A program made the translations under genes and the position numbers. From Thermosynechococcus vestitus BP-1 (GTDB lineage: Bacteria > Cyanobacteriota > Cyanobacteriia > Thermosynechococcales > Thermosynechococcaceae): a DNA stretch of 64,000 nt. The stretch lies in NCBI RefSeq assembly GCF_000011345.1, contig NC_004113.1, forward strand, positions 806,001 to 870,000. Direction: 5' to 3'. Within the stretch, counting starts at the first letter, position 1. Every line of letters begins with the position of its first letter. Below are positions 34,993 to 37,265 of the stretch, one piece after another. The notes below the pieces were generated by a model. It was not told the origin of the DNA and did no database searches. It saw nothing but the letters and a program-made list of their open reading frames with translations.

Positions 34993-35376
34993 CTACTTGT
35001 TGGGAATTGTGCTGGTGTTGCCATCCCGCAGTGCTAAATAGCTCCGTGACATGATTTCAATACCTGCTTCATTGCAGGCCTCTTGGAGGTTTTGAGGTAA
35101 TTTAGAGAGGCTATAGTGCAGCTCCTTCCAGTTACGGGTGTAAACATTAAGCCCATAGGCAATGGGGTAGTCATTGACGGCAATGCAGAGTTCACGAAAC
35201 AGAGGTGGCAATTCGTTGTAGTCGGGGAGATGGGTTGAAGAACACCCGGCAAAGCAAACACAACAACTGTTTTGCCATTGATACAGATCAGGGGTGGTCC
35301 CATTGACCCATTGATCGCCTTTGTGGGTGCGAAAGGTCACTTCCGAAATACGTTGGCCTTCACAGTTGGGTAGCAT
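34993..35376 (-). pseudogene. Decayed peroxiredoxin (Prx5/AhpC-TSA type)
   Basis: A 127-codon frame remains open, but it matches peroxiredoxin 5-like proteins only in pieces. Residues ~1-29 (EVTFRTHKGDQW) fit the enzyme start. The strand with GKTVVVFALPG appears in a different frame at about 35250-35285, and the next piece, CSSTHLPDYNELPPLFREL, returns to the first frame with the residues before the peroxidatic cysteine deleted. Later parts fade (CIAVNDYPIAYG). Two compensating frame changes plus loss of the C-terminal half indicate a degraded gene, although the open frame could still be translated. It is divergent from the P-type-ATPase-like gene. Confidence 0.65.
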
Positions 35377-35444: not shown

Positions 35445-37265
35445 ATGGAACAGCAAATTGTTCATGCCACAACAGGGCGGGTACGCTTTCGAGTGCCGCG
35501 TGTGCAACGGGATCCTGCCTATGGAGAGTTATTGGTGCAGTTGCTGGAATCTTTGGCGATTGTTGAGCAGGTGCGTCTCAATCGGCAGGCGGCGACAGTG
35601 GTGGTCCAGTATCAGCCCCATTTGCTCGATGAGGCGGCGGTCTATGAACGTTTGAATCAGTGTTTTGAACAGGCAATGGTGGCCATGCCGCAGCCCTTCC
35701 CGGACAGTGCGGCTCCTGCGGATGCGATCGCCCTTGAAGACTACCAAGCGCAGGTAGAGGCGGATGCTCGCCTTGAAACCGATTGGGAACGCTTGGGGCT
35801 GCCCTTAGTGGCCTTGGGGCTCTCACTCCTCAGTGGGCCCTTGGAATTGCCCTTGGCGGTTGTCGGGACTACGGTCTTAGCCAGTGCTTGGCCTTGGTTC
35901 CAGCGGGTGGGGCATCAGATCAGTCAGGGGCATCCCCCCAATGTGGATCTGCTCGATAGCCTCTGGATGGTCCTGCATACCATCAATGGCCAGTTCTTAG
36001 CGCCTGCATTGAAGACCACCTTGGCTGGGGCCCGGGCAGACGTGCGCGATCGCCAGCGACGACAACAGTTGCATCGATATCCCAGTGTCTTGATGGCTCA
36101 CTGTGAATACCTGACGGTGGAACGTCAAGGCCACTCCCTCACGATTGAACGTCAGGAGTTGCAAGCGGCGGATCTGCTGTGGTTGCGGCCAGGGGATCTG
36201 GTGCCGGCGGATGGCGTCGTTGTTGCCGGATTGGCAGAAGTCGAGCCTGCCCATTTTGAAGCCTCTCGAGAAGTGTGGGTTTGCCGCCCCGGCGATGCCC
36301 TTTATGCAGGCTCTCAAATTCTCACAGGACAGGTGCAACTGTGGGTGATCCGCAGCGGTTGGCAAACGCGCCTTGGTTTAATAACGCATCTGCTGCACAC
36401 TGAACCGGTCTATGACAGTGCCCTTGCCCACCAACAGGGGGAATTTGCCCGCCATGCGGTGCTGCCAACACTTGCCCTGAGTGGTGCCCTCTGGCTAGGG
36501 ACAACCGGTGTCTATGGACCGGCAATCGCCCCCCTACAATTGGACTTTGGCAGTGGTGTGCAACTGTCCCTGCGGACGGTGATGCTCTCGGCGCAGGTAT
36601 TCGCCGTGCAACAGGGGGTGTATCTACCCACTGCTGGTACTTTAGAGCAACTGGCACAACTGGAGAGCTTGGTGATTGATGCGCGCGCAGGTCTTCCCCA
36701 GCCTCAACAGGCACAAATTCTGATTCAACAACTGCGACAGCTCGGCCTTCATATCTATCTGCTTCAAGATCAAGGTAGGCCCCTTGGGGGTACCACAGAG
36801 GTCACGCGCGATCGCCTCCCTGATCTTCAGGCCTATCTCGTCAGTCAGCGGCGGCGGGTCGGCTGGATCAGCTTTGGTGAAACCTGCTCCTGTCCTGAAC
36901 CCACATGGTTACCGATTCGCTGGCAGCCCCCTACCTTTGACCCCAATGCCAAGGGGGTTGTTCTTTTAGAGGGCGACTGGTCTGCCCTTGGCCGCGGCAT
37001 TGCCATTGCCCGCGATGCCCTAGAGCGAACCTATCAAAATGTGGCCTTGATTGCTCTGCCAAATTTAGCGGTTACCTTTGGCGGCATGTTTTTTGGCTTG
37101 CATCCTGTGGTCAATGTTGTCACCAACAACGCCACTGCCTTTATTGCTGAGTTTTGGCATGGAAACTCAACCCAGTTTCGTACCGCCCTATTGCCCAGGG
37201 TGTCAACGACTCTCCCCCTGCAACCCCTACCCCTAGAATTTCCTCAACTGGCGGTGGCTTCATAG
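35445..37265 (+). CDS. P-type-ATPase-like pseudoenzyme lacking catalytic motifs
   Basis: 606 residues. Layout follows a P1B-type metal ATPase: N-terminal ferredoxin-like metal domain region (TTGRVRFRVPRV), helices at ~115-155, actuator signature LRPGDLVPADGVVVAG at 247-262, later helices, and the C-terminal helix pair GLHPVVNVVTNNATAFIAEF near 551-570. The catalytic motifs are gone. TGES of the actuator is replaced (FEASREV). DKTGT is VIDARAGLP at 410-418, keeping the Asp but losing Lys and Thr. TGD and GDGxND are LLQDQG and ISFGET. The frame is intact and long, so it is probably expressed and non-pumping. Confidence 0.75.
   Translation: MEQQIVHATTGRVRFRVPRVQRDPAYGELLVQLLESLAIVEQVRLNRQAATVVVQYQPHLLDEAAVYERLNQCFEQAMVAMPQPFPDSAAPADAIALEDYQAQVEADARLETDWERLGLPLVALGLSLLSGPLELPLAVVGTTVLASAWPWFQRVGHQISQGHPPNVDLLDSLWMVLHTINGQFLAPALKTTLAGARADVRDRQRRQQLHRYPSVLMAHCEYLTVERQGHSLTIERQELQAADLLWLRPGDLVPADGVVVAGLAEVEPAHFEASREVWVCRPGDALYAGSQILTGQVQLWVIRSGWQTRLGLITHLLHTEPVYDSALAHQQGEFARHAVLPTLALSGALWLGTTGVYGPAIAPLQLDFGSGVQLSLRTVMLSAQVFAVQQGVYLPTAGTLEQLAQLESLVIDARAGLPQPQQAQILIQQLRQLGLHIYLLQDQGRPLGGTTEVTRDRLPDLQAYLVSQRRRVGWISFGETCSCPEPTWLPIRWQPPTFDPNAKGVVLLEGDWSALGRGIAIARDALERTYQNVALIALPNLAVTFGGMFFGLHPVVNVVTNNATAFIAEFWHGNSTQFRTALLPRVSTTLPLQPLPLEFPQLAVAS

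Follow-up and report, generated by a model that had tools for sequence, protein, structure and literature searches.

P-type ATPases are defined by a phosphorylated aspartate, and a gene in Thermosynechococcus vestitus BP-1 raises the question of why a protein built like one of these pumps should be retained once the catalytic motifs have gone. It lies in the window analysed here, a 64,000-nucleotide stretch of contig NC_004113.1 (positions 806,001–870,000), where it occupies 35445..37265 on the forward strand as an open reading frame of 606 codons with an ATG start. An earlier note made from the letters and reading frames alone had described a P-type ATPase fold in which TGES, DKTGT, TGD and GDGxND are all replaced while the actuator signature is kept, and had proposed selection for a non-pumping role, for example as a metal sensor or as the partner of a true ATPase. 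The frame is real, and the ORF list, Pfam, alignment and a structural model together identify its product as a dead HMA_2-type P1B ATPase without the nucleotide-binding (N) domain, which we refer to below as the dead pump.

The Pfam profiles place an E1-E2_ATPase match (PF00122) at residues 223–353 (E 2.6e-15) and an HMA_2 match (PF19991) at residues 4–68, the latter with 31.9 bits against a gathering cut-off of 30. No HAD or Hydrolase family in Pfam matches the 606 aa protein, whereas both of the intact BP-1 paralogues do match. The single HAD-type match in NCBIfam is weak (NF009699, E 0.01), and the NCBIfam ATPase-IB_hvy match (residues 223–412) reaches 64.4 bits against a cut-off of 346.25. 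Neither database offered a better-fitting non-ATPase family, no output domain was found by Pfam, and PADLOC gave no match. By sequence, the closest proteins of solved structure are the CopA actuator domain and HMA4. An AlphaFold2 model (pLDDT 80.9, pTM 0.76) retains a P domain reduced to a small core and lacks an N domain; it should be noted that it was built on 34 aligned sequences which include intact pumps, and is not independent of them. Its best PDB match by VIA is 7r0g_B (Z 25.8, rmsd 5.1, 469 residues aligned), with Z 24.2 to 7qbz, and Foldseek finds 7r0g_A (E 1.3e-17). The profile matches, model and fold search bear out the fold that had been proposed, and indicate that the P-type membrane bundle and actuator fold are present in the dead protein by descent.

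The individual parts of the protein, all on the forward strand, can be followed along this fold. The HMA_2 domain (residues 1–72, 35445..35660; Pfam and alignment) contains no cysteine and hence no CxxC of the classical or CopA-type HMA, and in the 34 aligned rows H7, R12 and R14 are invariant and R44 almost so. The first membrane helices (residues 111–205, 35775..36059; model helices and alignment) precede the actuator-like domain (residues 206–318, 36060..36398), which is supported by PF00122 and by a VIA match to the CopA A-domain 2hc8 (Z 13.2, rmsd 1.9, 113 aligned), and which has the actuator signature RPGDLVPADGVVVAG at residues 248–262. Alignment and position put EASR (residues 272–275, 36258..36269) in the place of TGES. 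In the TM3–4 region (residues 319–406, 36399..36662), the CPC ion-site place of CopA-type pumps reads LDFGSG by alignment (residues 366–371, 36540..36557); CPC is also absent from the intact HMA_2 pumps, where those shown have LDFG, LDLG or LDFS, and DFGSG (residues 367–371) is invariant across 13 aligned orthologues. The P-domain remnant (residues 407–505, 36663..36959; model strands and helices, motif distances) contains D412, the aspartate of VIDARAGLP, which aligns with that of DKTGT in the alignment of relatives, and the DARAG found there by alignment and position (residues 412–416, 36678..36692) retains the aspartate with the remainder of the motif lost. TGD is replaced by QDQ and GDGxND is lost when compared with intact relatives. 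D412 is 28 residues from the TGD position as opposed to 146–180 (median 152) in 63 DKTGT rows (56 HMA_2-type and 7 CopA-like), which indicates that the N domain has been deleted. The model then gives TM5–6 (residues 506–572, 36960..37160), which includes NNATAFIAEF. The N-domain deletion, the cysteine-free HMA_2 domain and LDFGSG at the CPC place go beyond the earlier note, as does the link with calcyanin-like genes described below.

The worn catalytic parts might be those of a decaying pseudogene, and we searched 58 genomes for the gene, BP-1 included. It was found in ten of the 11 Thermosynechococcus genomes (it is absent from G006, which is 90% complete), with frames open in nine of the ten copies and the G009 copy split over two frames. 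Outside the genus, relatives share 56% (G012), 46% (G019), 37% (G016) and 36% (G035) identity. The BP-1 gene compared with six close species has dN/dS values of 0.12–0.20 (Nei–Gojobori), and the pooled value for seven close species (21 pairs) is 0.14; the two intact paralogues have values of 0.07 and 0.11. Constraint varies along the protein: it is strongest in TM3–4 (0.04), followed by the linker (0.07), HMA_2 (0.09 for residues 1–90), TM5–6 (0.10), TM1–2 (0.14), the actuator (0.15), the P remnant (0.26) and the C tail, which has the highest value (0.37). TM3–6 and HMA_2 are thus the best-guarded parts of the dead pump. The earlier note had held that intact DKTGT in orthologues would mark a recent pseudogene, and no N-domain-less row carries DKTG. 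Despite the split G009 copy, the open frames, a dN/dS of about 0.14 and conservation across families make decay a highly improbable explanation, and within Thermosynechococcus it is ruled out by dN/dS. The conserved loss of motifs in orthologues and the low dN/dS agree with the selection for a non-pumping role that had been suggested.

We then ran a 13-member profile against 388 Cyanobacteriia genomes, where scans scored the best three or four candidates per genome and dead-pump counts are therefore lower bounds. Long dead members occur in at least the ten Thermosynechococcus genomes plus G012, G019, G016, G035, G197, G221, G135 and G218, with a further one in pieces in G287. LTGE and DQTG persist in the G135 member, which suggests stepwise loss of the motifs. 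Shorter forms in which the N and actuator domains are both absent were found in G042, G270 and four genomes of family f17 (G044, G062, G088 and G127), and these six are set apart in the class-wide profile search (E ≤ 5e-157, with the next at 1.6e-71). The HMA_2 scores of the reduced forms are above the cut-off of 30 bits in G042 (48.1) and G270 (32.9) and below it in f17 (20.5, 18.9 and 24.8), and the alignment shows the DFGSG site altered in the f17 (DFATP) and G270 forms. A model of the 409 aa f17 form (pLDDT 83.2) consists of an HMA-like domain, a membrane bundle and a small remnant, and matches 7r0g_A with Z 21.4 across 296 residues. The furthest reduction leaves the HMA-like region and membrane bundle, and not the motor.

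Phylogenetic trees were constructed after 32 of 100 rows had been dropped as near-duplicates or fragments, with L139 also dropped from the tree based on HMA_2 and membrane columns. In this tree (317 columns, 67 rows) all 20 N-domain-less rows fall on one side of a branch with support of 85/91 (not starred), and their nearest intact relative is the pump found in a gene cluster in G016, G135, G197 and G218 (support 80/73). We note that the G270 and f17 proteins sit on long branches which join in this tree, possibly a false grouping, and that an earlier quick tree of 737 columns placed the G270 protein outside the N-domain-less group. A separate case is a 748 aa HMA_2 pump in G271 (L178 2914–5157), which keeps its N domain and is dead by point changes, with AKTGT for DKTGT, NGDL for TGES, and GEGIDD; the search for such point-dead pumps covered the loci retrieved. 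A scan of genome contigs gave seven loci.

The dead pump does not occur alone. BP-1 has two intact HMA_2 P1B ATPases (L031 and L032, at 671k and 2294k of G000:C1) with Hydrolase matches, and each of the 26 sampled genomes with a dead pump also encodes an intact HMA_2 pump that keeps DKTG and TGE. Four genomes (G016, G197, G135 and G218) have two intact HMA_2 pumps some 5–18 kb from the dead gene. BLAST clustering shows the gene cluster there to include a Get3-like ATPase, a cax-type Ca/proton exchanger and a YtaF/MntP-type protein, with a P2A Ca-ATPase-like gene additionally present in G016 and G135 (profiles were checked for one example each of the Get3-like, cax and YtaF genes, and for both P2A genes). 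The Get3-like ATPases (L037 8821–9921, L079 10311–11453, L081 12236–13408 and L083 3230–4330, the first of these belonging to family NosAFP) have unusual P-loops such as GAAGSQQTT and GSVGTAQTT, and are perhaps altered ATPases too. In two assemblies the dead gene and a pump are adjacent: in Phormidium LEGE 05292 (L130) the two genes share a strand and the dead gene starts within the end of the intact pump gene, and in L131 the dead gene begins about 30 bases after a pump which is truncated by the contig end. The latter contig (L131 1–4980) is titled Clostridia bacterium and is probably mis-binned, as it holds a cyanobacterial-type HMA_2 pump as well as the dead pump. The dead gene, pumps and calcyanin-like gene are dispersed in Thermosynechococcus, where the dead gene adjoins neither of the others, and the neighbour comparison found no conserved synteny with window genes past the closest species. 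Upstream, 34993–35376 of the window is a deletion remnant, with about 2.1 kb missing in comparison to a sister species that has a peroxiredoxin–glutaredoxin gene and an MscS-type channel gene at this site (L048 9600–12082).

Calcyanin (ccyA) is linked to intracellular calcium carbonate, and a 'CoBaHMA' domain is named alongside it. We take an HMA_2-type domain together with three glycine zippers to be the calcyanin architecture, and use calcyanin-like here on the basis of architecture only. Proteins of this kind (approximately 320–380 aa) were found in BP-1, G035, G012, G019 and G042, with HMA_2 scores of 41.2, 33.8 and 32.2 bits for the first three and scores below 30 for G019 (26.3) and G042 (22.2), and HMA_2 did not match the glycine-zipper proteins of G270, G062 and G271. 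At E ≤ 1e-12 a profile of the zipper part, for which the best seven candidates per genome were scored, identified 26 of the same 388 genomes, and the E values show a gap from 1.7e-30 to 1.2e-21. A cut-off of E ≤ 1e-25, picked after this gap had been seen, leaves 20 genomes with a calcyanin-like gene, and every one of them also encodes a dead HMA_2 ATPase: the BP-1 type in 13, a reduced form in six and the point-dead pump in G271. The remaining 368 genomes include at least six with a dead HMA_2 ATPase (G009, G016, G135, G197, G218 and G287), and among these, calcyanin-like pieces were seen in G009, a short zipper protein in G218 and a weak match in G016. At the looser E ≤ 1e-12 a dead pump is present in 21 of 26 genomes, and none was seen in G281, G331, G334, G360 and G363.

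The same relationship is seen by genus (9/9 with a calcyanin-like gene compared with 3/151 without), by family (7/7 compared with 1/~36, where the total of 43 families is the highest code seen and not a complete list), and when restricted to the 58 genomes with HMA_2-type ATPases (20/20 compared with 6/38), it being understood that our Fisher tests treat genomes, genera and families as independent and that ancestry is handled only through the genus and family counts. In G271 the point-dead pump gene is divergently arranged beside the calcyanin-like gene. The L130 genome gives weak calcyanin-like matches and the L131 genome none. Family f2 (L120, L121 and L122) has HMA-like plus glycine-zipper proteins which are divergent calcyanin-like genes, with no dead pump found there, and one such gene, in the f2 genome G331, has an intact HMA_2 pump about 3 kb away. 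All cultured species of the Thermosynechococcus clade are reported to make intracellular calcium carbonate (PMC4085569), T. elongatus BP-1 produces these granules (PMC6087745), Microcystis is reported as forming such carbonates (PMC12836880), and the transport machinery involved in cyanobacteria is considered an open question (PMC11773610).

Our preferred reading, which we hold tentatively at somewhat under an even chance, is that the protein does not pump and instead serves calcium and carbonate handling as a membrane partner or dock. An HMA_2-carrying P1B ATPase would have been duplicated, and one copy would have shed the ATP-binding domain together with the catalytic motifs and been retained as a non-pumping membrane protein, with the membrane bundle holding the HMA_2 domain at the cytoplasmic face. 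There the domain may contact the intact HMA_2 pumps, and perhaps also the calcyanin-like protein in lineages where the latter has HMA_2, and the dead pump could thereby tune or place calcium or alkaline-earth transport for intracellular carbonate formation; the physical contact, the ion, the cell location and the carbonate role are those we infer. We favour a partner or dock because the motor is gone while selection guards the HMA_2 and membrane parts, and because live pumps share the domain and, in this sample, always accompany the dead one. Of the two roles suggested earlier, it is the partner of a true ATPase which gains from the two adjacencies and the accompanying pumps, while the metal sensor is weakened by an HMA_2 domain without CxxC. 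The lack of HMA_2 in the calcyanin-like proteins of G270, G062 and G271 means that pairing with calcyanin through this domain cannot be general and weakens docking by that route; such pairing is possible in Thermosynechococcus. Other observations also sit poorly with a partner or dock: the dispersed Thermosynechococcus genes, the six dead-bearing genomes without a clear calcyanin-like gene and the five at the looser cut-off with the reverse, the dependence of one of the 20 co-occurrences on the separate G271 pump, the three f17 proteins scoring 18.9–24.8 bits for HMA_2, and the changed DFGSG site in the f17 and G270 forms. A stricter version, in which a dedicated membrane dock pairs its HMA_2 domain with live pumps (and with calcyanin where present) and so fixes the sites of calcium loading and amorphous carbonate nucleation, at the cell poles in Thermosynechococcus, seems to us unlikely but worth keeping in mind; motor loss would then be recurrent, with one old N-domain deletion, further reductions and the separate point-dead G271 pump.

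The dead pump might instead be a passive channel or uniporter, in which a membrane core with DFGSG passes a cation without ATP. The exceptional constraint on TM3–4, the invariance of DFGSG in the 13 orthologues and the P1B membrane fold of the model all suit such a role, but the long forms keep the actuator domain too, no gate is evident, and the f17 and G270 reduced forms would have to conduct despite their changed site, which leaves this a rather improbable explanation. We regard as slightly more doubtful again the suggestion that the protein is a general non-pumping subunit of HMA_2 pumps which has nothing to do with carbonate, with the calcyanin link reflecting the shared ancestry of a few lineages. 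It would account for the L130 and L131 dead genes which adjoin a pump in genomes where calcyanin-like matches are weak or absent, and for the several calcyanin-like proteins without HMA_2, but the co-occurrence spans seven families and persists within the 58 HMA_2-ATPase genomes. A CxxC-based metal sensor was dropped when no cysteine was found in residues 1–72. The wider idea of a metal or ion receptor, which binds a ligand in the membrane core or HMA_2 and signals to other proteins without transport, faces the same lack of CxxC and cysteine and has no output domain detected by Pfam to signal through; the conserved HMA_2 region and the apicomplexan guanylate cyclases joined to P-type ATPase-like domains (PMC6592433) speak for it, and we consider it the least probable of these functional roles.

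The dead pump is of interest for two reasons. An old bacterial P-type ATPase lineage without the ATP-binding domain and yet under strong selection is unusual, and the co-occurrence with calcyanin-like genes makes the membrane-bound protein a candidate for a second component in the formation of carbonate inside the cell. Its role could be tested in T. elongatus BP-1, as this strain forms granules (PMC6087745). Among the matches listed in our searches for Thermosynechococcus, carbonate and P-type ATPases, for DKTG or pseudoenzymes, and for inactive P-type ATPases, none describes this protein in its title or the start of its abstract, and a search for 'CoBaHMA' gave no match; earlier mention in the founding calcyanin or CoBaHMA papers is possible.

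Of the known systems, the apicomplexan guanylate cyclases also link a P-type ATPase fold to signalling, but there the domain is of the P4 type, eukaryotic and fused to a cyclase. Calcyanin resembles the dead pump in that the calcyanin-like proteins of BP-1, G035 and G012 also have HMA_2, and differs in that calcyanin-like proteins have glycine zippers and no ATPase fold. The P1B ATPases (CopA 7r0g, ZntA 4umw and 7qbz) share the membrane bundle, actuator, P-domain core and N-terminal HMA-like domain with the dead pump, which differs from them in having no N domain, DKTGT, TGES, TGD or GDGxND, no CPC or SPC in TM4 and no CxxC in its HMA_2 domain. The intact cyanobacterial HMA_2 P1B ATPases have the HMA_2 domain, membrane helices and LDFG, LDLG or LDFS motif in common with it, and differ by keeping DKTG, TGE, GDGxND or GEGxND, and the N domain.
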